From: a virus
Strand: one strand, 5' to 3'
Length of the DNA stretch: 47,650 bases
Virus record (IMG/VR): IMGVR_UViG_3300015371_000068
Location: 1-47,650 of that record
Below the pieces are notes generated by a model. The model was not told where the DNA came from. It worked only from the letters and a program-made list of their open reading frames with translations, and did not search any database. Position numbers and translations under genes: made by a program. Positions 1-47,650 of the stretch are shown one piece after another (the stretch's first letter is position 1; every line of letters starts with the position of its first letter).

Positions 1-123
1 CGACGGGGCCGACAAGGAAGCAGAAAAAATCCTTGAGGAAGCCTACCCAGAGCGCAAAGCCATTGATCTGCGGGTGGAGTCACGTCGCAAATTCAACGAG
101 AAATTCGGAATTGACCCTAATCG
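1..123. repeat. Left copy of 123-bp terminal direct repeat
   Basis: Bases 1-123 are identical to bases 47528-47650. The reading frame that begins at 47319 continues in phase through the repeat into 124-373, so this is the overlap of a circular (or circularly permuted) genome and not a biological duplication inside it. An exact overlap of this size is also what a k-mer assembler leaves at the ends of a circular contig. A true short terminal repeat cannot be excluded from sequence alone. Confidence 0.95.
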
Positions 124-2059: not shown

Positions 2060-2370
2060 AAATCATCGCAATCTTAATTACGGCAGCAATGCTGTCGCTT
2101 TCCGCTGTTAGCTTCACGTCCTGTGCCAACATGAGTGGCACAGTTGCTACCGCGCAGGGATGGCTGAATGATCCCAAAAATCAGCAGCTCATTTCCGACA
2201 TCGCTTCTACCGCCATAAGTGTCATCGGCTTACTAGGCGCAAAAGAGGGAGCAAATACTCAGGCTACTACCGTCGGAAAACTTAGTGCCAAATATCCTGA
2301 CGTTCCCGCAGGCGCTCTCCGCGAGATTGCAGCGCATCCCCACGCCTATGCCAAAACCGCTCAACATTAA
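2056..2370 (+). CDS. Putative lipoprotein in lysis cassette (o-spanin-like candidate)
   Basis: This gene encodes 104 residues. The N-terminus is a signal peptide with a lipobox-like SFTSC ending at Cys23, although Phe at -3 is not the classical residue. The mature part is short and mostly helical, with a hydrophobic stretch at about 48-62. It starts in an ATGA overlap. A small lipoprotein directly downstream of single-TM coiled-coil proteins fits an outer-membrane spanin subunit, which would imply a host with an outer membrane. That role is inferred from layout and not from sequence family. Confidence 0.6.
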   Translation: MKIIAILITAAMLSLSAVSFTSCANMSGTVATAQGWLNDPKNQQLISDIASTAISVIGLLGAKEGANTQATTVGKLSAKYPDVPAGALREIAAHPHAYAKTAQH

Positions 2371-6007: not shown

Positions 6008-6684
6008 AGCGAACACTACTCAGCCTTTTTGTAAGTATGGCTTTAATCCATGCTTACGCACAGGATATGTCCAAGGGGCATACCTTCACCGATGGTGATA
6101 CCGTTCACGCTGCTGATCTTAACACGCTGGTAGATGGTGCCACTATCCTGCACACGTTCATTTCCAACAAAGCGGTAACTACTCCGCTAACCAGCGATCT
6201 TTTCATTTTCGATCAAGCCTCAACCAACACGCTCAAGGCGGTATCTTTAGCCAGCTTATTGACGGCTGGGAATGCGCTGGACACCAGTACTGTCAGGGCC
6301 GCTAATGTTTTTTATGGTGGGCCTATCAGTGGGGCAAGCGCGGCTCCTACTTTCCGTGCGCTTGTTCCGGCAGACACTTCCGACGCCACCAACACCGCAG
6401 GTGGCACTACGGTTGATTGTTCGCTTGCCAGAACTTTTGATCGAACGCTCTCGGCCAACACCCTCTACACTCTGACCAACATCTCTGATGGAGAAACCGT
6501 GACCGTCGCCGTTCATCAAGCGGCTTCGGGTGGTCCTTATACCGCCACTTTCACTGTAGCTGGGGGTGTGACATGGAGAGGCGGAACAGCACCAACTCAG
6601 ACTACCACCGCGAGCAAGATTGATCTCTACACCTTTATTCACATCGGAAGCAAGGTTTACGCGACCGCGAGCCAGAACTATTAA
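6004..6684 (+). CDS. Tail-fibre-like protein with signal peptide
   Basis: This gene encodes 226 residues. Residues 1-19 form a signal peptide ending AYAQ. The segment HTFTDGDTVHAADLNTLV resembles the N-terminal motif of many phage tail-fibre or spike proteins (GDxVxAADLN). SGASAAPTFRALVPADT is a common fibre linker phrase. The C-terminal half is a beta-rich domain. It is coupled to both neighbours (ATGA with the upstream gene, two bases to the next). It is likely a fibre subunit. Confidence 0.7.
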   Translation: MKRTLLSLFVSMALIHAYAQDMSKGHTFTDGDTVHAADLNTLVDGATILHTFISNKAVTTPLTSDLFIFDQASTNTLKAVSLASLLTAGNALDTSTVRAANVFYGGPISGASAAPTFRALVPADTSDATNTAGGTTVDCSLARTFDRTLSANTLYTLTNISDGETVTVAVHQAASGGPYTATFTVAGGVTWRGGTAPTQTTTASKIDLYTFIHIGSKVYATASQNY

Positions 6685-25253: not shown

Positions 25254-26522
25254 TTACTCTTGCCGCTCATTTTTTTCTTCTTCGCCATTTGCGATCACCT
25301 CCCTTATCCCGTTTAAAATCTGATAAGCCACCTGTGGGACGATTGCATTACCTAGTCCTCTAAGTCGGTTGGTTCTCTCTTTAACCCCCTTTGCGACACG
25401 AGGAATATATTTCGGTTCTTGGAGCCAGTAAGCCCCCAAGTCCCATCTTTCATGTGATCGTCCTTGTGGCATTTCTGACAAAGAATTTGGAGATTCGACA
25501 ATTCGTTGTTCAAAAGATTCCGGTCGCGATGATGCCTCTGTAAACCATGCCGAGAGCCACACGCTTCGCATTTTTCCATCGTCCTTATTAGCCGATGCGC
25601 TCTCATGCGACCACTTTTCGGTTTCGCCATGTTCCGCGAGATAATCCAGTCTCCGTAGCATCTGCTTGAACAAAAACGACGATGCTTCCAAGTGGCGTCC
25701 AACTTCCCGTTTGACCATCTCGGTCGAATCATTTCCTTGCCACAAAATTCGCAACGCTTCATCTATACCTCCGTCCATGTTTCGGGGTATCCCATTAGCC
25801 ACTCTACCCAATCGGGGTTCAGGGAGCCACTCTCTGCCGTGGCTGCTGTCGCACAAAGGTACTGGCGATCCTCCATGTGTTTCTGGCTCTTGCTCCCCCT
25901 CGGCCCGCTCCCTTTGTAATCGCTCGCGCGTGGCGACGGCCACATCTCCGGCGTGTTCACCTGATCGGCTAGGCTGATGGCGTGGCCCTGCTCCTTCCGA
26001 TCCAAAGCGTTCGCTGCTCCACCCGTTGTCATGCTCGCGTCCGGCGTACGCCACAATCCAGACGCGCATTCGTCGGTGCGGCGCGTCCACGGCACAAGCT
26101 GGAATAGCAAACGCCCGAAACCCATAACCGATATTTGCCAAGTCAGATAGCACCTGGTCGAGTTCCACTCCGATGATTCCAGCAACATTTTCTCCAACAA
26201 TCCAAGTGGGGTGCGCTTCTCTGATAACTCGGAGCATTTCCGGCCAGAGCGCACGGTCATCTGCCGCGCCTCTTCGCTTCCCTGCGTGGCTGAAAGGTTG
26301 GCAAGGAAATCCCCCTGTAATGAGATCGACTCCCCTATACCATCCTCCATCAAGAGTTCTAATGTCGGGCCAGATATGGATGTTGCCGAAGTTCTTGTAG
26401 AGCACTCTTCGACAGTAGGAGTCAATTTCGCAGAATAGGGTGGTTTTGAATCCAGCCCATCGAGCGGCAAGAGCAAATCCTCCGATCCCGCTGAACAGGT
26501 CAAGGTGTGTGGGCCTGTCCAT
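25254..26522 (-). CDS. DNA C5-cytosine methyltransferase
   Basis: This gene encodes 422 residues from ATG 26522, which follows CGGAG. It transfers a methyl group from S-adenosylmethionine to cytosine in DNA, most likely to protect phage DNA from restriction. Motif I is DLFSGIGG (8-15), motif IV GGFPCQPFS with catalytic Cys74, motif VI ENV (111-113), motif VIII-like RMRVW (151-155) and motif X RLRGLGNAIVPQ (from 386). A stretch of about 130 residues between GRVANGIP and the second, similar RVAKGV segment is not methyltransferase-like. It coincides with an HNH gene in another frame, so the protein may be interrupted or enlarged. Confidence 0.85.
   Translation of the reverse strand: MDRPTHLDLFSGIGGFALAARWAGFKTTLFCEIDSYCRRVLYKNFGNIHIWPDIRTLDGGWYRGVDLITGGFPCQPFSHAGKRRGAADDRALWPEMLRVIREAHPTWIVGENVAGIIGVELDQVLSDLANIGYGFRAFAIPACAVDAPHRRMRVWIVAYAGREHDNGWSSERFGSEGAGPRHQPSRSGEHAGDVAVATRERLQRERAEGEQEPETHGGSPVPLCDSSHGREWLPEPRLGRVANGIPRNMDGGIDEALRILWQGNDSTEMVKREVGRHLEASSFLFKQMLRRLDYLAEHGETEKWSHESASANKDDGKMRSVWLSAWFTEASSRPESFEQRIVESPNSLSEMPQGRSHERWDLGAYWLQEPKYIPRVAKGVKERTNRLRGLGNAIVPQVAYQILNGIREVIANGEEEKNERQE
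25352..25762 (-). CDS. HNH endonuclease inside the methyltransferase gene
   Basis: This gene encodes 136 residues. An N-terminal zinc knuckle (CEFCGKEM, CSSRC) is followed by CEACGSRHGLQRHHRDRNL and NLQILCQKCHKDDH, a canonical Cys-flanked HNH nuclease core. It begins directly after a TAG that ends another open frame (25763-25765) and lies in the same frame as that protein. The methyltransferase reads through the whole interval in a different frame. It is likely a homing endonuclease that invaded the methyltransferase locus. Its last residues are encoded by bases that also encode methyltransferase motif X. Confidence 0.75.
   Translation of the reverse strand: MKRCEFCGKEMIRPRWSNGKLDATWKHRRFCSSRCYGDWIISRNMAKPKSGRMRAHRLIRTMEKCEACGSRHGLQRHHRDRNLLNNELSNLQILCQKCHKDDHMKDGTWGLTGSKNRNIFLVSQRGLKREPTDLED
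25763..26350 (-). CDS. Overlapping-frame protein with WLMGYPETWTEV ending
   Basis: The frame is open from 26503 to 25763. ATG 26350 would give 195 residues and ATG 26260 fewer. The words LLEKMLLESSEWNSTRCYLT, LLFQLVPWTRRTDE, GLWRTPDAS, MWPSPRASD and SLNPDWVEWLMGYPETWTEV match a family I know from phage genomes that lies near cytosine methyltransferases and ends in EWLMGFPxGWTxL. Here it is encoded by the same bases as methyltransferase motif VIII through the RVANGIP segment, in another frame. It may be real overprinting, or a conserved-looking shadow of the methyltransferase. The function is unknown. Confidence 0.4.
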   Translation of the reverse strand: MEDGIGESISLQGDFLANLSATQGSEEARQMTVRSGRKCSELSEKRTPLGLLEKMLLESSEWNSTRCYLTWQISVMGFGRLLFQLVPWTRRTDECASGLWRTPDASMTTGGAANALDRKEQGHAISLADQVNTPEMWPSPRASDYKGSGPRGSKSQKHMEDRQYLCATAATAESGSLNPDWVEWLMGYPETWTEV

Positions 26523-26856
26523 TAAACTCCGAAGCCACAAAGACAATGCAGTTCCGGCCCGATGGCCCAGGGCGACGGCGATCAGTTTCTACCGCGAAAC
26601 CTTTACGGATCAATGGCCGCATCCTTGGCGAAACGGTCTGCCACTCCATGCCGGTTTGCGCAACCAGATCGTGCGAAGTAGCCCCATCAGCCCCGAACTC
26701 TTTCAGCGCCTCCAATACTACCGCTTCGGCATCTGTTGTTCGTATAGACTCAGCCGCTTCCTCGGAAGTCTCTGGATCGCTGTTCCGCGAATAGGCGTCA
26801 GTGCGATCCACCATCCCATTAAAAAGGTCGAACTGCTCGGCTTCGTAGATTCTCAT
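26500..26856 (-). CDS. Winged-helix-like DNA-binding protein
   Basis: This gene encodes 118 residues. Residues 27-100 read SDPETSEEAAES, then VLEALKEFGADGATSHDLVA, QTGMEWQTVSPRMRPLIRKG and RRRPGPSGR. This is the layout of a small winged helix-turn-helix used by phages for regulation or replication control. It overlaps the methyltransferase start by 23 bases, which suggests co-translation. The DNA target is unknown. Confidence 0.6.
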   Translation of the reverse strand: MRIYEAEQFDLFNGMVDRTDAYSRNSDPETSEEAAESIRTTDAEAVVLEALKEFGADGATSHDLVAQTGMEWQTVSPRMRPLIRKGFAVETDRRRPGPSGRNCIVFVASEFNGQAHTP

Positions 26857-27094
26857 AAAATTCGTCGCGAAAATGCTGAGTTTTCCATGCTATCACAGGA
26901 TTGATGTCGCAGTTCTGGTGGCTCTTCCACCACGAAAGAAAGCCAGCAGGAATCTCGGCGGCGGCGGGATCATCGGGGTCAACGAGGCTCGGCTTTAGTT
27001 GGGCGAACCCTCGGCTGCGCTGTAGCATGTAAAGGCGCTCTAGGGTGTCCAGAACTTCGCCCAGATCGACCGCTATGGGAGTTGGCTTGCTCAT
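26819..27094 (-). CDS. Small early protein, unknown
   Basis: This gene encodes 91 residues, with AAAGG upstream of the ATG. It is helical and acidic with Trp-rich WWKSHQN and IAWKTQHFRDEFY segments. Its start lies inside the previous gene (116-base overlap) and its end overlaps the winged-helix gene by 38 bases, so one boundary may be wrong. No family is recognised. Confidence 0.5.
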   Translation of the reverse strand: MSKPTPIAVDLGEVLDTLERLYMLQRSRGFAQLKPSLVDPDDPAAAEIPAGFLSWWKSHQNCDINPVIAWKTQHFRDEFYENLRSRAVRPF

Positions 27095-27290
27095 GGGATT
27101 GGCCTTTGAGTTTACGGCGGTATTCGTCGCGCAGATATTGTGGCACGTTCCCCCACGTATGCCACTTCATAATGTCGTCGCGCCGTGACGGATATTTGCG
27201 GACAGCCCATACTTTAAAAAGGTCAGGCAAATCAGCATCGTATTTGGGCCGATAAACGGTTTCCTCCCATCCGCAACGACTACACTTCAT
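26979..27290 (-). CDS. CxxC zinc-finger-type small protein
   Basis: This gene encodes 103 residues from an ATG in an ATGA overlap with the upstream stop. It begins MKCSRCGWEETVYRP (CxxC); only one pair is evident, so zinc binding would need a partner or dimer. The C-terminal 35 residues are basic and Arg/Pro/His-rich and coincide with the start of the next gene in another frame. The function is unknown; nucleic-acid binding is plausible. Confidence 0.5.
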   Translation of the reverse strand: MKCSRCGWEETVYRPKYDADLPDLFKVWAVRKYPSRRDDIMKWHTWGNVPQYLRDEYRRKLKGQSHEQANSHSGRSGRSSGHPRAPLHATAQPRVRPTKAEPR

Positions 27291-27535
27291 GTTTTCTTTT
27301 TTCTTTTGCCCATTGTGCGGCATAGCGCAATGGCATTGGTGGAATCGCTGATCTGTTTTATCAGCACTTCGATCACGTCCTGCCCTTGCTTCCCGCCACC
27401 AGCCTGCCCCCACGCCATCATCGCAATGTCGCGAGATTGCTCCATCATGAACGCCACCGCCGAGGGGAAGCGCGAGGACAGCTCGGCAGTCATGCGCTGC
27501 TTCAAATGGTAGAGAAGGACTTCGGCCTCACTCAT
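27287..27535 (-). CDS. Small helical early protein
   Basis: This gene encodes 82 residues, with ATG overlapping the previous gene by 8 bases and ATGA at its end. It is helical with Met-rich stretches (FMMEQSRDIAMMAWGQAGGG) and ends in KRKKKT. No family is recognised. The strong coupling supports expression. Confidence 0.55.
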   Translation of the reverse strand: MSEAEVLLYHLKQRMTAELSSRFPSAVAFMMEQSRDIAMMAWGQAGGGKQGQDVIEVLIKQISDSTNAIALCRTMGKRKKKT

Positions 27536-27920
27536 AGCCTTGGAACACCAGCTTGTGAAATTCCTGAAAGCTGCGCACGACTGCGACCTGCCAGCCGTTC
27601 ATCGCCATCTGGCGCATGCACTCGTGCTGCTCGGGTCTGACTCGGCCCGCGTCAGTCTTAACTTCAATTCCCCACGGAACACCATCTTTACAAAAGGTAA
27701 GGTCAGGCCAGCCCACAGTGGCGTGGCTCTTTTTGTCGGTGCGATGCCATAAAACGGCGATCCCCTGGTAATTCAGGTATTGCACCATTTCGCTCTGTAA
27801 ATTCCGTTCCGCGCGGGCAGCGCATTTGTCGGCTGCTTCGGCTGCGGTCAGGCCAGCTTTGCCGAGTTTGGCGCGATCCTCTGGCGCAACGCAGCGCAAA
27901 ACGTGTTCAGGTAGGATCAT
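27528..27920 (-). CDS. VRR-NUC nuclease
   Basis: This gene encodes 130 residues from ATG 27920. The core is GWPDLTF (70-76), GIEVKTDAGRV (84-94) and QHECMRQM (98-105), with a preceding Glu in NLQSEMVQYL. This is the PD-(D/E)xK arrangement of VRR-NUC nucleases, which include Holliday-junction resolvase-like phage enzymes acting in replication and recombination. A GTG at 27971 would extend it by 17 residues, but that segment lies within a strong hairpin. The U-tract of that hairpin ends right at the ATG. Confidence 0.8.
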   Translation of the reverse strand: MILPEHVLRCVAPEDRAKLGKAGLTAAEAADKCAARAERNLQSEMVQYLNYQGIAVLWHRTDKKSHATVGWPDLTFCKDGVPWGIEVKTDAGRVRPEQHECMRQMAMNGWQVAVVRSFQEFHKLVFQGYE

Positions 27921-27996
27921 GCGAAAAAAAGATGCCTGCCGCCCGTGGGGAAAGTGGATCGCAAACCCCACACCATGCGTTGAGTGACGGCAGGCA
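27921..27996 (-). terminator. Large branched hairpin with U-tract (terminator or attenuator)
   Basis: On the minus strand TGCCTGCCG pairs with CGGCAGGCA (27988-27996 with 27933-27941). An inner pair GTGGGG/CCCCAC lies at 27967-27972 and 27945-27950. The T-rich run on the minus strand at about 27924-27932 follows immediately. This is a rho-independent terminator shape. It sits between the membrane-protein gene and the start of the VRR-NUC gene, so it may attenuate the downstream part of the operon. Confidence 0.7.
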
Positions 27997-28006
27997 ATTT
28001 CAAATT

Positions 28007-28501
28007 TTAGCGTCCGCTTTCCCGACCTTTCTCGGGATAATTACCGTTCTTATCTACGCCTTCTCCCTTGTAATCCCATGGAAAAGGCGTTGGCATTCCA
28101 CTCTGGTCAAAGGTCTGCTTGAAATTGAACCACCAGACCGACCAATAGGTGTTCCAGTACGGGGTCATCTTGGAATATATCCCGGCGAAGGAACCCGCCA
28201 GATCATCCTCAAAGGCTTTCGCTGGGGTAACGGGAAGTGCCAATGCTATTAGCATCGCTACCACTCCCTTCGTTACCTTTCCCGCTACCGGATCGGCCTC
28301 GCTTTCCTTCCACATCCGGTAGGTGCGAATCACCGCCCACCTAATCAGATAGTAGAGCGGGATCAGCACCAACAGCGGTGACAGGACAATCGCCAAGCTG
28401 TGATTGAATATCACGATCAGGCCGATTGCGCCCACCGCCATAACAACGATGAATACCGCTGTCCAATCTAACATTTCCTTATTACTTGCTTTCTTGTTCA
28501 T
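28007..28501 (-). CDS. Three-helix membrane protein of early operon
   Basis: This gene encodes 164 residues. Hydrophobic helices lie at about 13-32, 36-54 and 79-96 (VVAMLIALALPVTPAKAFE, which resembles an internal signal-anchor). The C-terminal region is Trp/Tyr-rich (YWNTYWSVWWF) and would be outside the membrane. It overlaps the upstream gene by 20 bases. An early-expressed inner-membrane protein could serve superinfection exclusion, but there is no family match. Confidence 0.6.
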   Translation of the reverse strand: MNKKASNKEMLDWTAVFIVVMAVGAIGLIVIFNHSLAIVLSPLLVLIPLYYLIRWAVIRTYRMWKESEADPVAGKVTKGVVAMLIALALPVTPAKAFEDDLAGSFAGIYSKMTPYWNTYWSVWWFNFKQTFDQSGMPTPFPWDYKGEGVDKNGNYPEKGRESGR

Positions 28502-28946
28502 TGTTCCTTTCGTTTGTTGTTGTCGCTTCTGCTAAGGCTTTCAACTGGTGATAGCGTTCAACAGAAATCTCCTTCCGCGCCTTAGCCCGTTCTAGGTAGG
28601 TCGGCCATGCCGTCACGTCCTCGGCGTCACCGACAAATACCTTGATCGCTTTAATGCGATGCCTGCCGGTGGTTTCGTAAATCGGGTAACAAGGAATATC
28701 CTGGGATTGCAGATGCGCGATAGCACGAGAGAGCCTGCGCCGCACATAGGTTTCATTGGTCGGGCTGGGTCTGTTAGTTCCGTACTGCACTCTCGCTATA
28801 TCACGCGGAGTAAAAAGCCTGCGCGGGAATTTTTTAACTAAGTCGATCACAATTTTATCCTGATATGTGCCAACCCTTGAACTAACTAGCCTGCCATTAG
28901 GTTCGATTACTAGCTCTGCTTCCTGTTTAACTAGCGCCTTCTCCAT
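28482..28946 (-). CDS. Putative helix-turn-helix early protein
   Basis: This gene encodes 154 residues. The central part (KFPRRLFTPRDIARVQYGT and TYVRRRLSRAIAHLQSQDI) has the spacing of a winged-helix domain, and the C-terminus is a charged helix. It is probably a DNA-binding regulator or replication accessory. Overlap with the membrane-protein gene implies coupling. Confidence 0.5.
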   Translation of the reverse strand: MEKALVKQEAELVIEPNGRLVSSRVGTYQDKIVIDLVKKFPRRLFTPRDIARVQYGTNRPSPTNETYVRRRLSRAIAHLQSQDIPCYPIYETTGRHRIKAIKVFVGDAEDVTAWPTYLERAKARKEISVERYHQLKALAEATTTNERNNEQESK

Positions 28947-28964
28947 TGTTTACCTTTCTACTGT

Positions 28965-29531
28965 TTATGCTGCCTCTTTGAGCCGCGCCCGAACGGAGTT
29001 GAGACGCTGCATGGCTTCATGGGAGCCGCCGTTTTTATCGGGATGCAATTCGACCGACAGAATCTTGTAGCCAATGTCGATTAAACGCATCGCCAGTTTC
29101 CGCTCTAACTCCCGTTCCTTTTCTTCTGAAAGTGATCGCTCTAGCAAAACCCTAGTGTGGCCTTTTGCCCGACGGACAAAATCGTCAACGGGGTCTTTCC
29201 AACTCCGTTGATGATGCGGACGATGATCGCCCCACATTTCGGATAGTGTTCGCCCTGCACTGCCGGCAGAGGCGTTAGAAGCTGCTCGCATCCATTGCCT
29301 TGCGCTTGCAGAACTCAGATGGAAGTTGCGCGTCAGCCATGGCCCCCACTCTAATGCGCTTAGTTGCGACTTAGCCTCAAGCAGTTCTTCGCCAATCTTG
29401 ATTTGATAAGGCACGGTCGCTTCATCAGCGGCCTTTTTCATTTCCGCAATGTCTCCTTTTATCAATGGCACCAGAACCTTGAGCGGTCGGGCGAGCGCCT
29501 TACTGTTTCTTTTTTGTAACTGTTTGTTCAT
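28965..29531 (-). CDS. DUF3102-like protein with C-terminal J domain
   Basis: This gene encodes 188 residues. Residues 40-85 (IGEELLEAKSQL, WLTRNFHLSSASARQWMRAA) follow the DUF3102 phage-protein pattern. The C-terminal about 40 residues contain YKILSVELHPDKNGGSHEAM with the HPD tripeptide at 163-165, the diagnostic motif by which J proteins stimulate Hsp70/DnaK. Only helices II and III of the J domain are evident. The phage may recruit host DnaK to a replication or transcription complex. It overlaps the upstream gene by 32 bases. Confidence 0.7.
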   Translation of the reverse strand: MNKQLQKRNSKALARPLKVLVPLIKGDIAEMKKAADEATVPYQIKIGEELLEAKSQLSALEWGPWLTRNFHLSSASARQWMRAASNASAGSAGRTLSEMWGDHRPHHQRSWKDPVDDFVRRAKGHTRVLLERSLSEEKERELERKLAMRLIDIGYKILSVELHPDKNGGSHEAMQRLNSVRARLKEAA

Positions 29532-29790
29532 TCGTTTCCTTGTTGTTAATCGTTTTCTCGATGAAATCTTTCTCCGCTCGCGCCAGTTCCTTTTCCAGTC
29601 CGAGCACGGCAGGGAATTTTTCCTTAATCATTTCGTTTATCATCTGGTCGGCCCGTTCGTCTGCCGTCTTGTCCCGCGCCACTGTGCCGGTTTCAGCCCC
29701 ATTGGTTCGCTCGGGATAAAGCTGCCGCAACAGATTCAACCGGCGCACGGTTCGAGGCTCGACATAGATTGTGGAGCTACGGAGTGACAT
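29500..29790 (-). CDS. Small early protein with charged helix
   Basis: This gene encodes 96 residues. The N-terminal SLRSSTIYVEPRTVRRLNLL resembles the strand and first helix of a ribbon-helix-helix DNA-binding protein, and the rest is a Lys/Glu-rich helix. It may be a regulator; no family was confirmed. Confidence 0.5.
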   Translation of the reverse strand: MSLRSSTIYVEPRTVRRLNLLRQLYPERTNGAETGTVARDKTADERADQMINEMIKEKFPAVLGLEKELARAEKDFIEKTINNKETNEQTVTKKKQ

Positions 29791-29792
29791 AT

Positions 29793-30926
29793 CTAGGTGA
29801 GGGGGATTTCATCTTTAACTACTTCTTCCTGCTGCCGCTTGTACTCTTCCTGAAACTCTTTGCCGGTCATTGGTTTCTTGGCCTTAGGGAAACTCTTCGT
29901 GCTGCGTTTCCATGCCAGTAGCCCGTCCATCATGGCGCGTTCCTTAGGGCTAACCGCGAGAGTCAGTTCGCTCTTCATCCGTTTCTCCATCCATTTGTAG
30001 GCCCACTCAAGTTGCTGTTTGTTTAGTTCTCCGAGCGGCATTCCTTCCCACGAACGCAGCCGATCATCGGCATCCTCGCCGAAGTAGATACCCACTTCCT
30101 GCCAGTCTGCGGCCTCGCTCGGAGCCTTCATCGCGGCCTTAGCCTTCTGGAAAGCGTCAGGCGGAGGGCGATAATCAATGCCACCACCGCTTGTTTCCAC
30201 GGCCTCCGGCTCACGCTCCTCGTGATATTCAGCCTCTCCTTGCGCTGCCTTTAAATTCTCGGCCAGTTCCTCAACGTCTTGTGTGAAGATGTCACTCGCT
30301 GCCGTCGCGGTCAGTACAGCGTCAACGTGGGCGCGTTTTTTCGCCATCTTTAAAACCGTGTTATAAGCGTCAGCGATATTCGGGTTCTCGATTGGCTCGC
30401 CCTGTTTGAAAATCTGCCAGATGCCGTCCTCTTTGGCGACGATGTGGCCTTTCCCACCAATCAGTTCCAGCGCCTTTTTGGGATCAGTTTTCCGCGTATT
30501 CCAGTACTCGTGCGGCACTGGCTCCCCCGTCGCTTCCTTCGGCCCTGCGCGGTAGCGATACTTGCTCTCCATCGTGGAACAGGAGCCGACTCCTTGCCCC
30601 ACGCTCCGGCCTGCTGCTGTCCGCAGGGTACAAGTCACCCGATACTCACGGTGGCCGTGCGGCATTTCCCGCTCGATCACTTCGTACTCGGGAGCGAGCC
30701 GGAAGGTGAAGCAGATTTTCTCCGCTCCTGGTTTGTAAAGGGACGGCTTCGGCGTGCCTGGAATCGTGCCGTAGTGCTCGTCTTTTTTCATGACGTTGTG
30801 CATGATCTGCTGGATCAGCCCGACCTGTTCGAGAACGTCCTCGATCCGCAGAGGGCGCTCCAACTCGGCGCTTGCTTTCTGAATTTCCATGCTCATATTC
30901 GGTTTGGTATCACTGGTTGTTTCCAC
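29793..30926 (-). CDS. Putative phage recombination/annealing-type protein
   Basis: This gene encodes 377 residues from GTG 30926 with AAGG upstream (an ATG at 30896 is possible). Conserved-looking blocks are QIMHNVMKKDEHYGTIPGT, LYKPGAEKICFTFRL, REYRVTCTLR, GVGSCSTMESKYRYR and KMAKKRAHVDAVLTATAAS. This family is frequent in phages and prophages beside nucleases and single-strand-binding genes, and I infer a single-strand-annealing or DNA-binding role. The C-terminal third is charged and probably separate. The VRR-NUC gene downstream fits a recombination module. Confidence 0.55.
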   Translation of the reverse strand: METTSDTKPNMSMEIQKASAELERPLRIEDVLEQVGLIQQIMHNVMKKDEHYGTIPGTPKPSLYKPGAEKICFTFRLAPEYEVIEREMPHGHREYRVTCTLRTAAGRSVGQGVGSCSTMESKYRYRAGPKEATGEPVPHEYWNTRKTDPKKALELIGGKGHIVAKEDGIWQIFKQGEPIENPNIADAYNTVLKMAKKRAHVDAVLTATAASDIFTQDVEELAENLKAAQGEAEYHEEREPEAVETSGGGIDYRPPPDAFQKAKAAMKAPSEAADWQEVGIYFGEDADDRLRSWEGMPLGELNKQQLEWAYKWMEKRMKSELTLAVSPKERAMMDGLLAWKRSTKSFPKAKKPMTGKEFQEEYKRQQEEVVKDEIPLT

Positions 30927-30954
30927 TGCTTACCTTCTAACTGTTGATTGTTCA

Positions 30955-31131
30955 TTACGGGGAGCGGTCCTGTTTGGCCGCTCCCCCTCCTTTTACGGCC
31001 CCCTCTAGTAAAGCCTCGATCCAGTAGCGCATTACGAAGTGATTGCGGCGGCAAAACGCCCGCACCTTTTGGTGAACCCGCTGGCTGACTTGGAAGGTCG
31101 TCAAATCCTTGTTTTGGTTCCTTCTATTCAC
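30955..31131 (-). CDS. Small basic DNA-binding-like protein, GTG start
   Basis: The gene encodes 58 residues from GTG 31131, preceded by GGAAG. The frame is open upstream to a TTG at 31170, but the sequence there looks like promoter DNA. The segment LTTFQVSQRVHQKVRAFCRR is consistent with a ribbon-helix-helix fold. It is a probable small regulator. Confidence 0.45.
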   Translation of the reverse strand: MNRRNQNKDLTTFQVSQRVHQKVRAFCRRNHFVMRYWIEALLEGAVKGGGAAKQDRSP

Positions 31132-31141
31132 GACTTCCAGA

Positions 31142-31170
31142 CATATTGATGGGGAAAAAATAGAAGTCAA
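31142..31170 (-). promoter_or_regulatory. Candidate internal promoter of early operon
   Basis: On the minus strand TTGACT (31165-31170) and AATATG (31142-31147) are separated by 17 bases, in the gap before the small GTG gene. The -10 box is a poor match. It would allow the recombination genes to be expressed separately. Confidence 0.3.
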
Positions 31171-31188
31171 TATTGTTCTGATGTTTTT

Positions 31189-31617
31189 TTAGGGTGAGAC
31201 TTCGTAAACTTCGACCAACGCTTTGCCCTCGGTCATGGAGTACCCGCAAACGATGGCAGTATAATGGCCTGCTGGAAGAGTCAGCACCATCGCGCTCTCA
31301 AATTCATTGGAGGGGGCGAGAACCCCAAGCTTGCTGGCGTTAAAATCGGTTTGCCAATCGTCGTTCAGGGCGATCAGATCGTCGTTCCCGTTGTAAACCG
31401 CCAGAATTGGATCAGGCAGGGTGTCGGTGACGCCAAAGGGAATGAGGCTCGGGCCTAGCGCCCGAACCACCACCGTCGTCGGAGTCTTTAAGATGAAGCC
31501 TGCGATCAGGACATCATCAAAAATTCCGACGCGGCCCCTGGTTGAAATGTTTTCCACTTGGCTGAATGCGGTCGCCGCCATGAGCAGCGCCGCGATTGTT
31601 GTGATTGTTCTTCTCAT
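31189..31617 (-). CDS. Secreted beta-sandwich protein of Verrucomicrobiota type
   Basis: This gene encodes 142 residues from ATG 31617 (ATGA overlap, GGAAGG upstream). Residues 1-20 form a signal peptide ending TAFSQ. The mature protein has VVVRALGPSLIPFGV, LPDPILAVYNGNDDLIALND and ALVEVYEVSP, the repeating statement of a small secreted domain that is very common in Verrucomicrobiota exported proteins. It was probably acquired from a host. Its role in the phage early operon is unknown; surface exclusion or envelope modification are options. Confidence 0.75.
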   Translation of the reverse strand: MRRTITTIAALLMAATAFSQVENISTRGRVGIFDDVLIAGFILKTPTTVVVRALGPSLIPFGVTDTLPDPILAVYNGNDDLIALNDDWQTDFNASKLGVLAPSNEFESAMVLTLPAGHYTAIVCGYSMTEGKALVEVYEVSP

Positions 31618-31805
31618 TGTTTTTGTTCCTTCCGGTATGGTGTGTAATCCCAAGGGATGTACGCCGGAAGCGAGGGTTTCCCCTGTCGCTCCGGCGGACT
31701 CGCCTTGCGTTGTTGTCGGTCACGCTCGGTGTGGCGACCGACCTTGTAGCCGGTCATCCACGCCAGAATGGTGAGCGCGGCGCTAAAGAAAAAGTAAGCG
31801 TTCAT
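31614..31805 (-). CDS. Small single-TM early protein
   Basis: This gene encodes 63 residues, coupled by ATGA overlaps on both sides. One membrane helix (residues 3-20) is followed by a basic, Pro-rich cytoplasmic tail. It may anchor or partner the secreted protein encoded immediately downstream. Confidence 0.6.
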   Translation of the reverse strand: MNAYFFFSAALTILAWMTGYKVGRHTERDRQQRKASPPERQGKPSLPAYIPWDYTPYRKEQKQ

Positions 31806-32029
31806 TGCTTCCTTTTTTGCTCGGCAGCATCATGCGCTTGGCGGATGCGCTCCGCATCCTTGCAGGCCCGCGAAGCCTTGTATTCCTCGTAGGTTTCAGG
31901 CTCCTCCGGTTGATCGGGTGGCCCACCACCATGCGCCTCGCGCGGGCGACCTGTGCTTGGATTGTTGTAGTTTTTCATAGCTTTCTCAAACCTTCCGTTG
32001 ATGTCTTTAAGGATTTCGATGAAGTCCAC
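31802..32029 (-). CDS. Small charged early protein
   Basis: This gene encodes 75 residues with an ATGA overlap downstream. It has a helical N-terminus, a Pro/Gly-rich middle and a charged C-terminal helix. No family or membrane segment is seen. Confidence 0.55.
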   Translation of the reverse strand: MDFIEILKDINGRFEKAMKNYNNPSTGRPREAHGGGPPDQPEEPETYEEYKASRACKDAERIRQAHDAAEQKRKQ

Positions 32030-32320
32030 TTAAAGGGTTTTCCTCAGATGTTTGTAGAGCTGGTCGTCCACTTCCTCCTGCGTCAGTTTCATGACGATGG
32101 TGGCGACGTTACCCATGCCATTGCGATAATCGGTGATGCGAACCTGCGCCTTCTTCAAGGCATAGCTCACCTGACCGACACGCAACCCTGTCATGCGGGC
32201 GATGTACTTCCCCGCGAATCCGTAGGAAGCGTAGAATGCAGCATCATGCCGCAATCCGCCTTCCATTAGCTCGCGAGCGACCGGACTCGGCCTCTTGCTG
32301 TTGTTCTTACTGGCTACCAT
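32030..32320 (-). CDS. Helix-turn-helix-like early regulator
   Basis: This gene encodes 96 residues from ATG 32320, which follows a strong GAGGAGG site. SYGFAGKYIARMTGLRVGQV followed by SYALKKAQVRITDYRNG has helix-turn-helix spacing. It overlaps the preceding basic protein gene by 14 bases. It is probably a DNA-binding regulator. Confidence 0.55.
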   Translation of the reverse strand: MVASKNNSKRPSPVARELMEGGLRHDAAFYASYGFAGKYIARMTGLRVGQVSYALKKAQVRITDYRNGMGNVATIVMKLTQEEVDDQLYKHLRKTL

Positions 32321-32855
32321 GTTTGCGTTCCTCCTCAAATCTAAGTGCCACTGTTAGCGCCCTGATCGGACACCCGCAGTTCGGGCACTCGTTGATGTTA
32401 TAAGCCGATGCAGCGGGTGCAGCAGTTGTGCCATTACTGGCCTTAGCCCTCCGCGCGGCCATTACTTTCTCCTTGTTTTTGTGATACCACTCGCGCTGTT
32501 GAGCGCGGGCGCGTTCCTTGCTGGCAGTAGTAAGTCCCCGCTTCATTTCCATCATTCGCGTCGCCTTGGGGAGTTTGCTAAACTGCGCAATCGTCAGCCC
32601 GAGCCGTTCCCGCGCTGCCTTGTGACGAGCCATGAAGTTAGCCTGATACTGACGCTGCTTGGCTGGATCGCGGCGTTTTGCCCTTGCCAGTTTCGGCCTG
32701 CCGCCGCGACGCAGTGGATTGCCTCGGGCACTTAATCCCATGGCATTGAGTTTAGCGACACGTTCCCGCGCCGCTGCCGCATTCCTAGCGCGACGATCAG
32801 CCTCTAACTGCGCTTGATCGACCGCGATTTTCTCTTTTTCTGTTTGTTCTTCCAT
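32307..32855 (-). CDS. Basic protein with C-terminal zinc ribbon
   Basis: This gene encodes 182 residues. It is Arg/Lys/Ala-rich and helical, with a CPNCGCPI zinc-binding word near the C-terminus. The central part (RQYQANFMARHKAARERLGL) resembles nucleic-acid-binding helices. A role in early DNA or RNA binding is plausible; no family is recognised. Confidence 0.55.
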   Translation of the reverse strand: MEEQTEKEKIAVDQAQLEADRRARNAAAARERVAKLNAMGLSARGNPLRRGGRPKLARAKRRDPAKQRQYQANFMARHKAARERLGLTIAQFSKLPKATRMMEMKRGLTTASKERARAQQREWYHKNKEKVMAARRAKASNGTTAAPAASAYNINECPNCGCPIRALTVALRFEEERKHGSQ

Positions 32856-32995
32856 TTGTTGTTGTTCTTTCTTTCCTTATCCCACCGAGCGTTGATCGCT
32901 TTCTTACCAATCTTGCTCAGTTCATCTTTTGTTAATAGCGCCGCGCGAGCATGACCGCCGAGTGATGCCATTTCTTTTACAGTCATTTCTTTCAT
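32804..32995 (-). CDS. Small basic protein with GGHARA motif
   Basis: This gene encodes 63 residues. The segment ASLGGHARAALLTKDELSKI with KKAINARWDK resembles short DNA-binding motifs common in phage and bacterial small proteins (GGxARAxxLT). The Lys-rich tail overlaps the next gene by 52 bases. Confidence 0.5.
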   Translation of the reverse strand: MKEMTVKEMASLGGHARAALLTKDELSKIGKKAINARWDKERKNNNKWKNKQKKRKSRSIKRS

Positions 32996-32998
32996 GTA

Positions 32999-33355
32999 TT
33001 ACTTCTCCAATTCGATTTGACCGCCCCTCCATCCTATCGCCATACCATCCATATAGGCAGCGGTGATAAGGGAGGAAAGCCGTTTCCACTGGTCGGTCTG
33101 CACCAGGCACTTGGCGATCTGCTCGTCGTTATCAGGGTGGTGGCCCATGTTATAGCCAAGGTAGCGGGCGGAAAAGGCGCGGAGAGCGCGTTGCTCGGCA
33201 AGATAGGCCAGTTGCGCCACGCTCACGCCTAGCCCCAAGTCGGCCACCATCCCGTCCAGCCCCTTCGCCTCGGTGCGGTCATTAACGTCCCGCGCCGCTT
33301 TCGCTAAAGGATGCTCGGGATCAATCCGATCTGGATTAGTTCGGTAGTCTTTCAT
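32999..33355 (-). CDS. Early protein, unknown function
   Basis: This gene encodes 118 residues from an ATG in an ATGA overlap with the upstream stop. The protein is helical and mildly acidic, with GHHPDNDEQIAKCL and a Trp in QWKRLSSLITAAYMDGM. No family is recognised. The frame is open further upstream, but the coupled ATG is preferred. Confidence 0.55.
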   Translation of the reverse strand: MKDYRTNPDRIDPEHPLAKAARDVNDRTEAKGLDGMVADLGLGVSVAQLAYLAEQRALRAFSARYLGYNMGHHPDNDEQIAKCLVQTDQWKRLSSLITAAYMDGMAIGWRGGQIELEK

Positions 33356-33708
33356 TTGATCCCCTCGTTTAACCCAATCGGTGGTGTTGTCGTAATCCAT
33401 GCTTTCTCTGCCTCCTCGATTGCTTCCAAAAACTCCAAATGCTTCGGGCTGTTTTCGTGCCGATATTTGTCGATCCCATAGTTTTGCGCCGCCCATTTAG
33501 CTGCTGCCAGTAAATCGGCCTTCCGTTGCCGCTTCCCAAATATCCGTGCTGCTGCGCCTCGGTAGATAGTGCCAGCCTTTAGGTTCTGCTCGACTGCAAA
33601 ACGCAGCTCGGCTCGCCCCTCTCCTGCGCCGCTGGTAAAGCCAGCGTAGCGCAGAAGGTAGCGGCATTGCCGTTTCGTTAGCGAGGCAACAAATTCCCTA
33701 GTGTTCAT
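33352..33708 (-). CDS. Early protein, unknown function
   Basis: This gene encodes 118 residues, basic and helical. The N-terminus (SLTKRQCRYLLRYAGF) looks like a small helical DNA-binding domain. The ATG overlaps the stop of the upstream 45-residue gene. No family is recognised. Confidence 0.55.
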   Translation of the reverse strand: MNTREFVASLTKRQCRYLLRYAGFTSGAGEGRAELRFAVEQNLKAGTIYRGAAARIFGKRQRKADLLAAAKWAAQNYGIDKYRHENSPKHLEFLEAIEEAEKAWITTTPPIGLNEGIK

Positions 33709-33894: not shown

Positions 33895-33966
33895 GGGATC
33901 GCTTTCGCTATGGCTCATTTTTCCCTCTAGGGATCGCATTCGCTATGACTCGCTTTCGCTATGGCT
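33895..33966. repeat. Three short direct repeats
   Basis: Copies lie at 33895-33916, 33930-33951 and 33947-33966 (the last two overlap). The shared core is TCGCWTTCGCTATGRCT. The spacing between the first two cores is 35 bases. Repeats of this kind can be operators or iterons. Confidence 0.75.
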
Positions 33967-33988
33967 TTTTCCAGCACCCCTGCCGCGA

Positions 33989-34158
33989 GCGACTTTCTCC
34001 CGTGTTCTACATAATACGCGAATTACGTGACGCCGGCTTCCAGGTGCCAGGATGTCGTCACCTCCACGCAGTTTACGTAACAAGGTGAAAACGTAAAAAG
34101 GTAGCAAGCACGAGGGGAACGAGTTTTCCCGCGTTTGATATAATACGCGAATTGCGTG
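33989..34158. repeat. Imperfect 40-bp direct repeat pair with ACGC-GAATT-GCGT core
   Basis: The segments 33989-34030 and about 34119-34158 share TTTCTCCCGTG/TTTTCCCGCG followed by ATAATACGCGAATT[A/G]CGTG, offset 129 bases. In the second copy TATAAT is complete and ACGC/GCGT form palindromic arms around GAATT. They may be paired promoters with an operator. Confidence 0.65.
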
Positions 34159-34173
34159 TGAGAGAATTGTCTG

Positions 34174-34233: not shown

Positions 34234-34407
34234 TGCTTTACTAAAATCTAAAGTCCATCAGGCAACTAGAGTCGCACATTTCCGCGTTCGTGCAAGCAAA
34301 TAAACTTTGGGCGCATGGCATTGGTCTTGCTCTAAGACACTCGAAAATAAATGAAAATATTTCACATTCCTGCTTGCATGTATAGTAAGGAATGAGAGAA
34401 TGCGACA

Positions 34408-34605
34408 ATGAATAAGCAAACTACAGAGAAAAAGGTAACACTAGAAACTGCGAAGTTTCTCGTGTGGATACATTACGGGTGGAGCGAATATGGTTATAGG
34501 TTCGCTTCCACTAAACGAGAAGCGAGGATCATTCGCGACGAAGCAAGACGCGAAGGATGGGACTCGTTTATCACAAGCGGAATAATCGGACATCAGATTA
34601 AGTAA
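34408..34605 (+). CDS. Small protein of the amidoligase cassette
   Basis: This gene encodes 65 residues, with AAGGAATGAGAG upstream. WIHYGWSEYGYRFASTKREA and RIIRDEARREGWDSF form one compact basic domain. No family is recognised. It is the first gene of the three-gene cassette, 34 bases before the amidoligase, and has the same A/T-leaning codon use as its neighbours. It may be a substrate or regulator of the two enzymes. Confidence 0.6.
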   Translation: MNKQTTEKKVTLETAKFLVWIHYGWSEYGYRFASTKREARIIRDEARREGWDSFITSGIIGHQIK

Positions 34606-34639
34606 CAATCAACAATCAAACTAGAAGGAAAAAAATAAT

Positions 34640-35737
34640 ATGCCGTGGATAAACACTAGTGGCGAATGGGAATGGATAGACGATCAACCATTCGCAGAAC
34701 CTACGGAGGAGACTCCTCCGCCAATGGTAACGTGCCCTTGCTGTTATAACTATGAGCAAGTCCGCGAGGATCAAACTTGTAACGCGCGAGTTTTTTTGCG
34801 CGAGGGAAATGCGCCGCGACTACCTAATGTCTGCGAGGATTGCCAACGCTATTGCGATTCGTGCGACGAAACTTATGCCGTACAGGGTGGTTGGCATGAG
34901 GATTATTGCCCTAATTGTTATGACAATGATTCATGCGGCGAGGATGAAGAATTCTATTATCCTAGACTCAATAGATTTTTCGGCATTGGCCCGAAATTTT
35001 TCGGTCTAGAAATAGAATGCGAAGTTAATTCCTCGCAAGCGCGAGGAGAAAAGCTGCGTCAGTTGCGCTCTATATTGGGCGACTACGCAGCACTAAAAGA
35101 AGATGGAAGTCTGGACTACGGCATTGAAATTGCCACGCAACCAGCTTCCATGAAGGAGCACAAGGTAAGACTGGCAAAACTATTCGCCAAGCTGCCGCGC
35201 GGGTTGTCAGCATGGCGACGTCCATCATGCGGGTTGCACATTCACGTTTCTAGAAGTCCGTTGTCAGACTTAACGATAGCGAAAACGGTCTGCTTTGTTT
35301 CGGCAAATCACAATCGCCGTTTTATTAAGCTGATTGCGGGACGCGACTCCAACAGCTATTGCAAGATACAGCCTAAGAAATTAGGTACGGCTGCGAAGTA
35401 TAACGCGGATCGTTACGAGGCAATTAACTTGCAGAATATTAACACAATCGAATTTCGATTGTTTAAAGGCACGTTGCGTGACGTTAGCGTCTATAAGGCG
35501 TTGGAGTTTACCGACGCATTAACAAACTATGCCGGATGCGCCGCACGGAGCATTCGCGACTCACAATCGCGCGTTAAATTTTGCGCGTTTGTGGAGGAGA
35601 ATAAGGCGACATGGCCTAATCTATGCGCCTTTATTCAAGCGCGTTGGTTCGGTCGCGAAACTGATTTGACTAAGCAAATTGGTTTTAATGCGAGTGAAAA
35701 CAATCAGGAAACATTAGATCAAACATCAGAACAATAG
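34640..35737 (+). CDS. Zinc-ribbon amidoligase (COOH-NH2 ligase, Amidoligase_2 type)
   Basis: This gene encodes 365 residues, with AGAAGGA before the ATG. Residues 30-99 hold five cysteine pairs (CPCC, CEDC, CDSC, CPNC and others) as a zinc-ribbon region. The catalytic domain follows: FGLEIE (121-126), EDGSLDYGIEIATQP (154-168), CGLHIH (197-202), RYEAINLQ (258-265) and IEFRLFKGTL (270-279). These are the signature blocks of Amidoligase_2, a glutamine-synthetase-like fold that uses ATP to join a carboxylate to an amine. The gene is followed 16 bases later by a glutamine amidotransferase that could supply ammonia. The substrate is unknown: a peptide, a protein tail or a cell-wall precursor. Confidence 0.85.
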   Translation: MPWINTSGEWEWIDDQPFAEPTEETPPPMVTCPCCYNYEQVREDQTCNARVFLREGNAPRLPNVCEDCQRYCDSCDETYAVQGGWHEDYCPNCYDNDSCGEDEEFYYPRLNRFFGIGPKFFGLEIECEVNSSQARGEKLRQLRSILGDYAALKEDGSLDYGIEIATQPASMKEHKVRLAKLFAKLPRGLSAWRRPSCGLHIHVSRSPLSDLTIAKTVCFVSANHNRRFIKLIAGRDSNSYCKIQPKKLGTAAKYNADRYEAINLQNINTIEFRLFKGTLRDVSVYKALEFTDALTNYAGCAARSIRDSQSRVKFCAFVEENKATWPNLCAFIQARWFGRETDLTKQIGFNASENNQETLDQTSEQ

Positions 35738-35753
35738 AAGGAGACAATCAATT

Positions 35754-36674
35754 ATGTGTTTAGCTATATTTAAGCCCAAAGGCGTGGAGATAAAGAAAAA
35801 GTATCTCCGCAACGGATGGGATAACAATGAGGATGGAGCGGGTTTTGCGCTTGCGCGAGGTAATGCTGTGGAAATTCACAAGGGTTTTTTCACCTTTAAG
35901 GAGTTTTACACAGCCTTTAAAGAGTTTAACAATCCGAGGGAGGTAGCGTTGATCCATTTCCGCTGGGGAACGCATGGCCCTAATAACGCGGCGAATTGCC
36001 ATCCATTTAGCGTGTGTGGGGATAAGTATGCCATGATCCACAATGGGATTATTGATATTAAGAGGGAAAATTTCGCGTTATCGGACACAGCGCATTTTTG
36101 CGAATTGGTTTTGCAACCGATTTTGGAAAAAGGCGTGGAATTTGATAGCGGCGCATTGCGTTACCTAGTGGAGGGATCGATTGGAGATTTAAATAAAATT
36201 GTGCTTCTGCGTGGCGACGGAGCGCACGTTATTTTCCACGAGAAAAAGGGGGAATGGAAAAACGGCTCGTGGTATTCCAATAATGGCTACCAGTACGCGA
36301 GCACATTTTCCCGCGCGTGGGCTTATGAGGGAAAAGGTTCCTGCGGCGCGTACGCTGGCTTTGGTGCTGGTTACGGCAGTGGAAGCCAGTGGAAACGTCG
36401 CGAACAGACTAGAGAGGATGAAATGTTGGACGCAGCCTATTGGCAGGGAGAATGCGAGAGCGTGTCTGCTGCTGGTTATGGGAGCGAGTGGGAATACCAG
36501 TACAACAAGGAAACGAACAAATGGAGTCGCGTCGGACTGAACAAGCGCATCGCGGAAATGACGGAGGAGGAATGGAGGAAAGAGTGCGAGGAGGAATTGG
36601 AAATCGCCAATCGTGACGCAATCCAAACGCAAGCGGAAATAGATAAGGAGGAGAATGAAAAATACAGTGGTTAA
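35754..36674 (+). CDS. Class II glutamine amidotransferase (Ntn hydrolase)
   Basis: This gene encodes 306 residues, with GAAGGAG upstream. Cys2, exposed after Met removal, is the nucleophile (MCLAIF). Matching class II blocks are NEDGAGFA (25-32), HFRWGTHGPNNAANCHPF (68-85) with Arg70, and AMIHNGII (93-100), as in GlmS and PurF. The enzyme would hydrolyse glutamine and pass ammonia, or act on a gamma-glutamyl bond. The C-terminal 110 residues are Gly/Tyr-rich and then charged helix, and are not part of the core. It is paired with the amidoligase upstream and closed by a terminator. Confidence 0.85.
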   Translation: MCLAIFKPKGVEIKKKYLRNGWDNNEDGAGFALARGNAVEIHKGFFTFKEFYTAFKEFNNPREVALIHFRWGTHGPNNAANCHPFSVCGDKYAMIHNGIIDIKRENFALSDTAHFCELVLQPILEKGVEFDSGALRYLVEGSIGDLNKIVLLRGDGAHVIFHEKKGEWKNGSWYSNNGYQYASTFSRAWAYEGKGSCGAYAGFGAGYGSGSQWKRREQTREDEMLDAAYWQGECESVSAAGYGSEWEYQYNKETNKWSRVGLNKRIAEMTEEEWRKECEEELEIANRDAIQTQAEIDKEENEKYSG

Positions 36675-36689
36675 GGTTTAATCCCTTAG

Positions 36690-36730
36690 TGCGCCGCTAT
36701 GGTTTAAGGCTGTAGCGGCGCAATTTTTTT
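36690..36730 (+). terminator. Strong rho-independent terminator
   Basis: TGCGCCGCTA (36690-36699) pairs perfectly with TAGCGGCGCA (36713-36722) around a 13-base loop, followed by seven T residues. It closes the amidoligase cassette. Confidence 0.9.
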
Positions 36731-36930: not shown

Positions 36931-37422
36931 GTGGAAACGAGTACACAACGCAGCCTAACACAGCCTAAACGCTCGCAATTAGCCATCATGCGTAAGGTCT
37001 TTCCCGATCTCCTCACCTACATATCGGAGGGAAAACCTATCCGACAATTCCTCCACCAGCACAACCTAGACTTTAAAACTCTTATGCGCTTCTTAGACCA
37101 ACGTCCCGAGCAACGTCATCAGTACTCGCACGCGCGGCGTTGCATGGTGGAAGCGTACGTCGCGGAAATTGTGCCGATGAGTGACGCAGTGATAGGGGAA
37201 GAAATGAATGTGGTGACGGCGACAAGGAATGCCGTTGACGCGCGTAAATGGGTGGCTGGAAAACTCGCTCCCAGAGAGTACGGGGATCAACCGGGAGGAG
37301 TCGTTATCAACAATCAGACCAACGTCATGGTGGTAAGCGAGGATCGCTTAAAGGAATTGCAAGCCGTGCGGCAGAAGCTTCTCGTTGCGCGACCAATCGC
37401 CCAGGCACCAGGCAACACGTAA
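36931..37422 (+). CDS. terS: Terminase small subunit (Sf6/TerS-like)
   Basis: This gene encodes 163 residues from GTG 36931; ATG 36988 is an alternative, and neither has a clear ribosome-binding site. The N-terminal region (FLDQRPEQRHQYSHARR) is a helix-turn-helix type DNA-recognition segment. The block NVVTATRNAVDARKWVAGKLAPREYGD is a strong statement for Sf6-type small terminases. The protein recognises the packaging site and activates the large subunit. It is separated from the large subunit by about 2.9 kb, which is unusual. Confidence 0.75.
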   Translation: METSTQRSLTQPKRSQLAIMRKVFPDLLTYISEGKPIRQFLHQHNLDFKTLMRFLDQRPEQRHQYSHARRCMVEAYVAEIVPMSDAVIGEEMNVVTATRNAVDARKWVAGKLAPREYGDQPGGVVINNQTNVMVVSEDRLKELQAVRQKLLVARPIAQAPGNT

Positions 37423-46319: not shown

Positions 46320-47303
46320 ATGGCGCTAATGACCACGAGCACTACGGGTTTAACCAGTGCTCAGATGGCCTTCGTATTCAGCAAAAAACTGCTGGACTAC
46401 GCAAGGCAGCAGTTGGTCATGAACCAGTTCGGCGACGACGTTACATTCCAAAAGAATGCTGGATCAAAGGTGATCCGGTGGCTACGGCCTGACGCTGGCG
46501 ACCGTTCTCAGGTTCAGACCCTATCAGAAGGGGTGCCGCTTGCTACTTATCGGGAAATTGCTTACACCGCTGTCGAGGCCACGCTCATTCAATACGGCGA
46601 ACTCGCCAAGTTCAGTGACCAATTAACCCTGATCGAGTTGTATCCGACGCTCCGGCAGTCGATCGACACGCTTGGCGAGGATGCGGCTCAACACGCCGAT
46701 TTCATCGTCATGACGGAAGTCGTGACTGGCATTGCTTCAGGAAACAAAATGTATGCCCAGGGCATCACCAGCTTCAATAACCTTGTCGCTGCGACTGCTT
46801 CTGGTGGAGCCTTGACCTTGCCGGATGTCCTCCGCGCAATGACAAAACTCCAACTCACCCGAGCGCCAATGCGCAATGGTGAGTATGTCTGCATTGTCCC
46901 GCCCCAGGTCGCCTTCGATCTGATGCAGGACACCAAATTCATCAATGCCGGTCAGTACGGAACAATTAAGGGACTATTCACGGGAGAAGTAGGACGCTGG
47001 TATAACTGCCGCGTCATAGTTCAGACCCAGCCCTGGATTGAAGCTAACACCAACGGCACCGAAGGAACCTATTCCAGCTCCGGCGCAATCTATAGCTCGA
47101 TTGTGACTGGGAAAGATGCGTATGGCGTTCCCAAGATGGCCGGATTGGACGAGCAGAAACCGCGAATGTACATCAACGACCAGCCAGACAAGAGTGACAA
47201 CCTTAATCAGTTCGTCACCGTTGGCTGGAAGTCGTTCTGGGTAGCAAAAACGCTCAATAACACATGGAGCGTGGTGCTGCGCAGTAAGACGACATTCGCA
47301 TAA
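46320..47303 (+). CDS. Major capsid protein, N4 gp56-like
   Basis: This gene encodes 327 residues. The pattern FSKKLLDYARQQLVMNQFGD, QTLSEGVPLATYREIAYTAV and EATLIQYGELAKFSDQLTLI matches the N4 gp56 family of HK97-fold major capsid proteins. The protein forms the icosahedral shell. It follows the scaffold and HNH genes and precedes the gene that crosses the genome join. Confidence 0.85.
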   Translation: MALMTTSTTGLTSAQMAFVFSKKLLDYARQQLVMNQFGDDVTFQKNAGSKVIRWLRPDAGDRSQVQTLSEGVPLATYREIAYTAVEATLIQYGELAKFSDQLTLIELYPTLRQSIDTLGEDAAQHADFIVMTEVVTGIASGNKMYAQGITSFNNLVAATASGGALTLPDVLRAMTKLQLTRAPMRNGEYVCIVPPQVAFDLMQDTKFINAGQYGTIKGLFTGEVGRWYNCRVIVQTQPWIEANTNGTEGTYSSSGAIYSSIVTGKDAYGVPKMAGLDEQKPRMYINDQPDKSDNLNQFVTVGWKSFWVAKTLNNTWSVVLRSKTTFA

Positions 47304-47318
47304 CCGGAGAAACTACCT

Positions 47319-47650
47319 ATGGCGACTAAAGAAAAAGACGAATCAAGAGAGGCCAAACGTGGTGGCGAATCTGATGCTGGAAAGCAGTTAAAGGCTCGAC
47401 AGCAACAGGTCGAAAACACCATCGAAGGTAAGGACACCGGCAAAACGATCACACAGCAGACAAAGGAAGCTCGCGGCGAGGAGGGGGAAGAGGGTGGCAA
47501 AAAGAACAAGGCCATGCTCGAATACTCCGACGGGGCCGACAAGGAAGCAGAAAAAATCCTTGAGGAAGCCTACCCAGAGCGCAAAGCCATTGATCTGCGG
47601 GTGGAGTCACGTCGCAAATTCAACGAGAAATTCGGAATTGACCCTAATCG
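47319..47650 (+). CDS. N-terminal part of head-region protein crossing the genome join
   Basis: The ATG at 47319 follows CCGGAGAAAC (ribosome-binding site). This part is charged and low-complexity (KDESREAKRGGESDAGKQ and EARGEEGEEGGKKN), then enters the shared globular part. The same frame continues at position 2 and stops at 373, giving 193 residues on the circle. Confidence 0.85.
   Translation, partial: MATKEKDESREAKRGGESDAGKQLKARQQQVENTIEGKDTGKTITQQTKEARGEEGEEGGKKNKAMLEYSDGADKEAEKILEEAYPERKAIDLRVESRRKFNEKFGIDPN
47528..47650. repeat. Right copy of 123-bp terminal direct repeat
   Basis: This is identical to bases 1-123. It marks the circular overlap of the assembled genome. Confidence 0.95.

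Follow-up and report, generated by a model that had tools for sequence, protein, structure and literature searches.

A bacterial virus represented by a 47,650-base record (the window, meaning the whole stretch of DNA analysed) carries two adjacent genes encoding a GS-fold amidoligase and a class II glutamine amidotransferase (GATase). The cassette is a fresh instance of an already described module, and the pair is widespread in viruses and integrated elements. The sequence-only reading had described a self-contained unit of these two enzymes with intact active-site signatures, and motifs, profiles and conserved residues all bear this out. We put at about one in two the probability that the pair works as a phage-borne two-enzyme amidation system.

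Genome setting and limits of the cassette

The first 123 bases of the window (1-123) are repeated directly at 47528-47650, and this terminal direct repeat suggests a complete, circularly assembled phage genome. Genes at 25254-33708 are read leftward and all others in the window rightward. The first of the rightward units is the cassette, which lies immediately 5' of the small terminase gene. The three open reading frames initially proposed for the region were recovered at their positions, and the features considered here are the following.

34375..34397 (approximate limits), + strand: putative promoter/leader-like element (TGCTTGCATGTATAGTAAG region), kept ahead of the L003 and L004 cassettes in a three-phage alignment
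34408..34605, + strand: 65-residue ORF between the leader and the amidoligase gene, not conserved with the module, absent at this site in L003 and L004
34640..35737, + strand: Amidoligase_2 (GS-fold COOH-NH2 ligase), 365 residues, assigned from Pfam PF12224, invariant residues and AlphaFold2/Foldseek
35754..36674, + strand: class II (Ntn) GATase, 306 residues, nucleophile Cys2, assigned from conserved residues, a PDB profile and AlphaFold2/Foldseek
36690..36722, + strand: intrinsic terminator at the end of the cassette, 15-pair stem and 7 T
36931-37422, rightward: small terminase, Sf6 type
46320-47303, rightward: major head protein

The strong terminator at the end of the unit is thus where it had been placed, and AG-rich leaders precede both enzyme start codons. 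Judged from the three-phage alignment, the TGCTTGCATGTATAGTAAG region may be a promoter or leader; a sigma-70 scan made no call at this element. Farther upstream, the intergenic region 5' of the cassette (33995-34165) contains two TAATACGCGAATTRCGTG-type copies 129 bases apart, with an imperfect inverted copy (CACGCAGTTTACGTAACAAG) after the first of them. This repeat region is kept in the window, in L003 (about 7550-7715) and in L004 (about 6480-6645), and possibly represents an operator, an origin or a promoter element. Its single-sequence RNA fold was not above that of shuffled sequences (z -0.6), and an Rfam search returned no match. A 27-nt repeat of the TCGCTTTCGCTATGGCTC type also occurs, in three imperfect copies, in the divergent intergenic region (33895-33972).

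The A/T-leaning composition attributed to the cassette relative to its neighbours is evident in the GC content of the 65-residue ORF, amidoligase and GATase genes (0.43, 0.47 and 0.48, respectively, versus 0.53 for the genome). The same tendency appears more weakly in L003 and L004 (0.50 and 0.49 versus 0.53), so that low GC characterises the cassette within this phage lineage and is no proof of a recent acquisition.

The 65-residue product had been put forward as a member of the module and as a candidate substrate, a proposal that did not hold. L003 and L004, the two closest phages, correspond to the window at this site, in the upstream region, in the leader and at the 5' end of the amidoligase gene, and both carry the enzyme pair with no 65-residue gene beside it. 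Searches of viral contigs and phage records gave no homologue of the protein, and phrog_21645 matched it only at an E-value of 0.016. The absence of the gene from both phages and its lack of relatives speak against it as partner or likely substrate and remove it from the module; it is an insertion in this phage or a loss in the others.

Elsewhere in the window, a C5 cytosine DNA methyltransferase is encoded on the - strand at 25254-26546 (Pfam 3e-40), near a gene for a VRR-NUC domain protein (27528-27971). Within the rightward genes lies a papain-family (C1) cysteine protease (2285-3133, Pfam 2e-15), a family that to our knowledge is rare in phages.

Signatures and folds of the two enzymes

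The amidoligase is composed of a Cys-rich, LIM/zinc-ribbon-like N-terminal domain (around residues 30-95) and a catalytic domain (around residues 115-320). It matches PF12224 (Amidoligase_2) with 39.8 bits (E 6.2e-10) against a curated cut-off of 22, and phrog_16683 with an E-value of 1.6e-22. The signature motifs announced for both enzymes are all present, namely FGLEIE (121-126), CGLHIH (197-202) and IEFRLFKGTL (270-279) in the amidoligase and RWGTHG (70-75) and HNGII (96-100) in the GATase, the latter also containing SDT (110-112). Across 40 amidoligase relatives E124, E126, D155, E163, C197, H200, R235, N263, E271 and R273 are invariant, and conservation of the ExE, E, H and ExR residues places the protein in the GS superfamily. 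The N-terminal CxxC...CxxC cysteines (C32, C35, C65 and C68) are kept in 38-40 of the 40 relatives, and profile searches return the region as LIM-like. The zinc ribbon suggested earlier is plausible on these grounds, zinc itself being a presumed ligand.

Foldseek comparison of the AlphaFold2 model of the amidoligase (mean pLDDT 84.7) recovers YbdK, glutamine synthetase and gamma-glutamylmethylamide synthetase (GmaS), with weaker matches to the depupylase Dop and the Pup ligase PafA (E 3e-4 to 1.4e-3). The TM-scores are low (about 0.2-0.4), so this match is to be read at the level of the superfamily and points to no specific function. Three rows from phage records were left out of the alignments behind the structure models.

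The GATase consists of a catalytic domain (residues 1-180), modelled with a pLDDT of about 97, and a 125-residue C-terminal tail that is partly poorly predicted and shows no conservation in the family. Profile comparison, one of the checks that had been proposed, was clear for Amidoligase_2 and divided for the second enzyme: as a single sequence the GATase scores 24.4 bits against GATase_6 (E 3e-5), just below the Pfam cut-off of 27, and its family profile matches the GlmS glutaminase domain in the PDB with an E-value of 2e-12. It also matches phrog_25883 (E 1.4e-14). On the basis of the family profile and of a fold matching GlmS, the protein is assigned to the class II GATase superfamily and not to the Pfam GATase_6 model. 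Foldseek ranks the GlmS glutaminase domain first for the GATase model, followed by PurF and EgtC (the last with E 7.6e-5 and about 13% identity). In agreement with this assignment, the glutamine-binding R70, the oxyanion N-G and the Asp of SDT (D111) are conserved. C2, H68, R70, G98 and D111 are invariant in 43 aligned GATases; T73, H96 and N97, and HNG as a whole, are kept in at least 42 of them; and a Cys directly follows the initial Met in all 43. Catalytic-type residues of both enzymes are therefore retained in their alignments of 40 and 43 relatives.

Pairing in viruses and bacteria

Searches with the amidoligase alignment as the sole query yielded at least 511 viral relatives, the best 80 of which were kept, giving 79 loci. 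A co-directional GATase gene adjoins the amidoligase gene in 79/79 of these loci, a figure that applies to the closest relatives because the set includes near-duplicates and the query alignment derives partly from loci first found through the GATase. The GATase gene lies downstream in 78 loci, with gaps of at most 92 bases, and upstream in one; the larger negative gaps are probably due to over-extended ORF starts. Two more distant relatives (L015 and L016) have an amidoligase gene with no GATase gene nearby. The protein distances of both enzymes correlate over 40 loci (Mantel r 0.78, a value reached in 0 of 5000 permutations), and no fusion of the two was found among the loci examined.

Bacterial genome contigs contain at least 478 further amidoligase relatives. 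Just downstream of the amidoligase gene, 63 of 80 bacterial loci have a profile-detected GATase and 7 more an HNG-containing ORF with a Cys start. Together with the viral loci, this recurrence defines a conserved two-gene system. Nearly all the bacterial loci belong to Clostridia, mostly Ruminococcus and Oscillospiraceae. Integrase or resolvase genes stand beside the pair in three loci examined closely, so that the pair apparently travels on bacterial integrative elements too, and a mycobacterial plasmid carries both genes. L113, L107 and L120 (Ruminococcus flavefaciens and Oscillibacter) have the pair near DUF960 or DUF6809 genes as well as integrase/resolvase genes.

Listing the neighbours of homologous pairs, as had been suggested, showed that only these two genes recur. 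No third gene family is common to all viral loci: the top cluster is antisense noise, and others are either confined to particular groups or common phage genes, terminase for example. Among 25 viral records tested, the window included and some of them fragments, GGCT (PF06094) was found in none and COOH-NH2_lig (PF14395) was absent from 22, the window among these.

Several described systems resemble the cassette. The phage modules of Iyer et al. 2009 (phiEco32 and others), as presented in papers citing that work (PMC10580990, PMC11318856), contain the same two enzyme families within a larger gene set, whereas only two genes are present here. The LUZ24-like 'peptidoglycan modification module' of Pseudomonas phages (UFV-P2 ORF21-29, phage U17) likewise includes Amidoligase_2 and GATase_6 but adds COOH-NH2_lig, ATP-grasp and GGCT (PMC11945000); the window has neither PF14395 nor PF06094. 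In mycobacteriophage Marvin, gp105 is an amidoligase and the neighbouring gp106 a Cys2 GATase, with about 28% and 31% identity to their counterparts here, although gp105 is longer (453 residues) and phage and host group differ. The OM43 phages MEP401 and MEP402 (gp06-gp07 in MEP402) have the adjacent pair in the same order, with a GATase 41% identical to the present one. Their pair sits 5' of replication genes whereas ours precedes terminase, their amidoligase has a much longer N-terminus, and the start of their GATase gene overlaps the end of the amidoligase gene.

Possible reactions and targets

In the amidation system that we favour, removal of Met would expose the catalytic N-terminal Cys of the GATase, which would hydrolyse glutamine and release ammonia. 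The amidoligase would use ATP to activate a carboxylate as an acyl phosphate, and attack by ammonia, or by another small amine, would produce an amide. The N-terminal cysteine cluster of the amidoligase would most likely bind zinc and position the target or a partner. No activity measurement or other experimental test of function for phage amidoligase/GATase pairs was found in the openly licensed papers searched.

In ergothioneine synthesis a GS-fold ligase, EgtA, is established as the partner of EgtC, a glutaminase-like class II Ntn enzyme. Known biochemistry thus already couples these two classes of enzyme, and a similar pair that first ligates and then hydrolyses is a serious rival to amidation, with a clear minority chance of being right. 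In that case an acid such as glutamate would be joined to an amine by the amidoligase and then removed or trimmed by the Ntn enzyme. Foldseek places EgtC, which cleaves a gamma-glutamyl bond and feeds no ammonia, on the GATase list (E 7.6e-5), and puts two GS-fold ligases, YbdK and GmaS, near the top of the amidoligase list. However, the ammonia-transferring GlmS is the better GATase match in both sequence and structure, and no further pathway enzyme is co-inherited. The cassette differs from the ergothioneine pair in its low identity to EgtC (about 13%), and no ergothioneine genes were seen here.

Less probable is a role in host metabolism, with a small amidated or gamma-glutamyl metabolite shifting nitrogen supply or signalling during infection. 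Both genes were classed as auxiliary metabolic genes in the description of the OM43 phages (PMC10580990), but no metabolic partner gene accompanies the pair, and a conserved N-terminal cysteine domain would be unusual in a small-molecule enzyme. A nucleic-acid role, in which the pair would amidate a modified base of phage DNA or RNA and so help to evade restriction, would be in line with the zinc-finger-like N-terminus and with the C5 cytosine methylase of the same phage (25254-26546). We regard it as very improbable, however: genes for base synthesis, transglycosylation or other DNA-modification pathways were not recognised among the window genes scanned, and no DNA-modification gene recurs beside the pair. 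The least probable is a pupylation-like tagging in which the amidoligase would attach a small protein, such as the 65-residue product, through an isopeptide bond and the GATase would act as amidase or deamidase; Dop and PafA among the structural matches and the small ORF 5' of the pair in this phage recall such systems, but L003 and L004 lack that ORF at the corresponding site, it has no relatives, and a small protein common to the loci was not found.

Returning to amidation, no partner protein is inherited along with the pair, and the host therefore most likely encodes the target; a host product or a common metabolite is a better candidate than a small protein from the phage. Iyer et al. 2009, as cited in PMC10580990, PMC11945000 and PMC11318856, proposed cell-wall modification or superinfection exclusion for phage amidoligases, and preparation of the wall for lysis has been mentioned as an alternative (PMC11945000). 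By analogy with these proposals, made for larger modules, our favoured but tentative guess, at less than even odds, is that the amide would form on a carboxylate of the cell envelope, for instance an acid in the stem peptide of peptidoglycan. The phage could then profit by excluding competitors or by tuning lysis. The counter-defence role that had also been raised received no direct support. Neither enzyme matches a PADLOC profile, and membership of a known anti-phage defence family was dropped for this reason; since PADLOC models cover defence and not counter-defence, this result weighs little on the latter.

The pair is common and nearly always consists of two genes, and its presence in phage genomes has been noted for more than a decade. 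With a minimal unit of two genes, comprising neither the 65-residue gene nor the larger Pseudomonas-type set, its reconstitution becomes simple and well defined. It is conceivable, though rather unlikely, that the pair provides a minimal two-protein, zinc-finger-targeted amidation of a host protein or envelope carboxylate in unrelated phages and integrated elements. If true, the host modification would be one not yet seen in bacteria, and such a minimal amidation pair could block competing elements.
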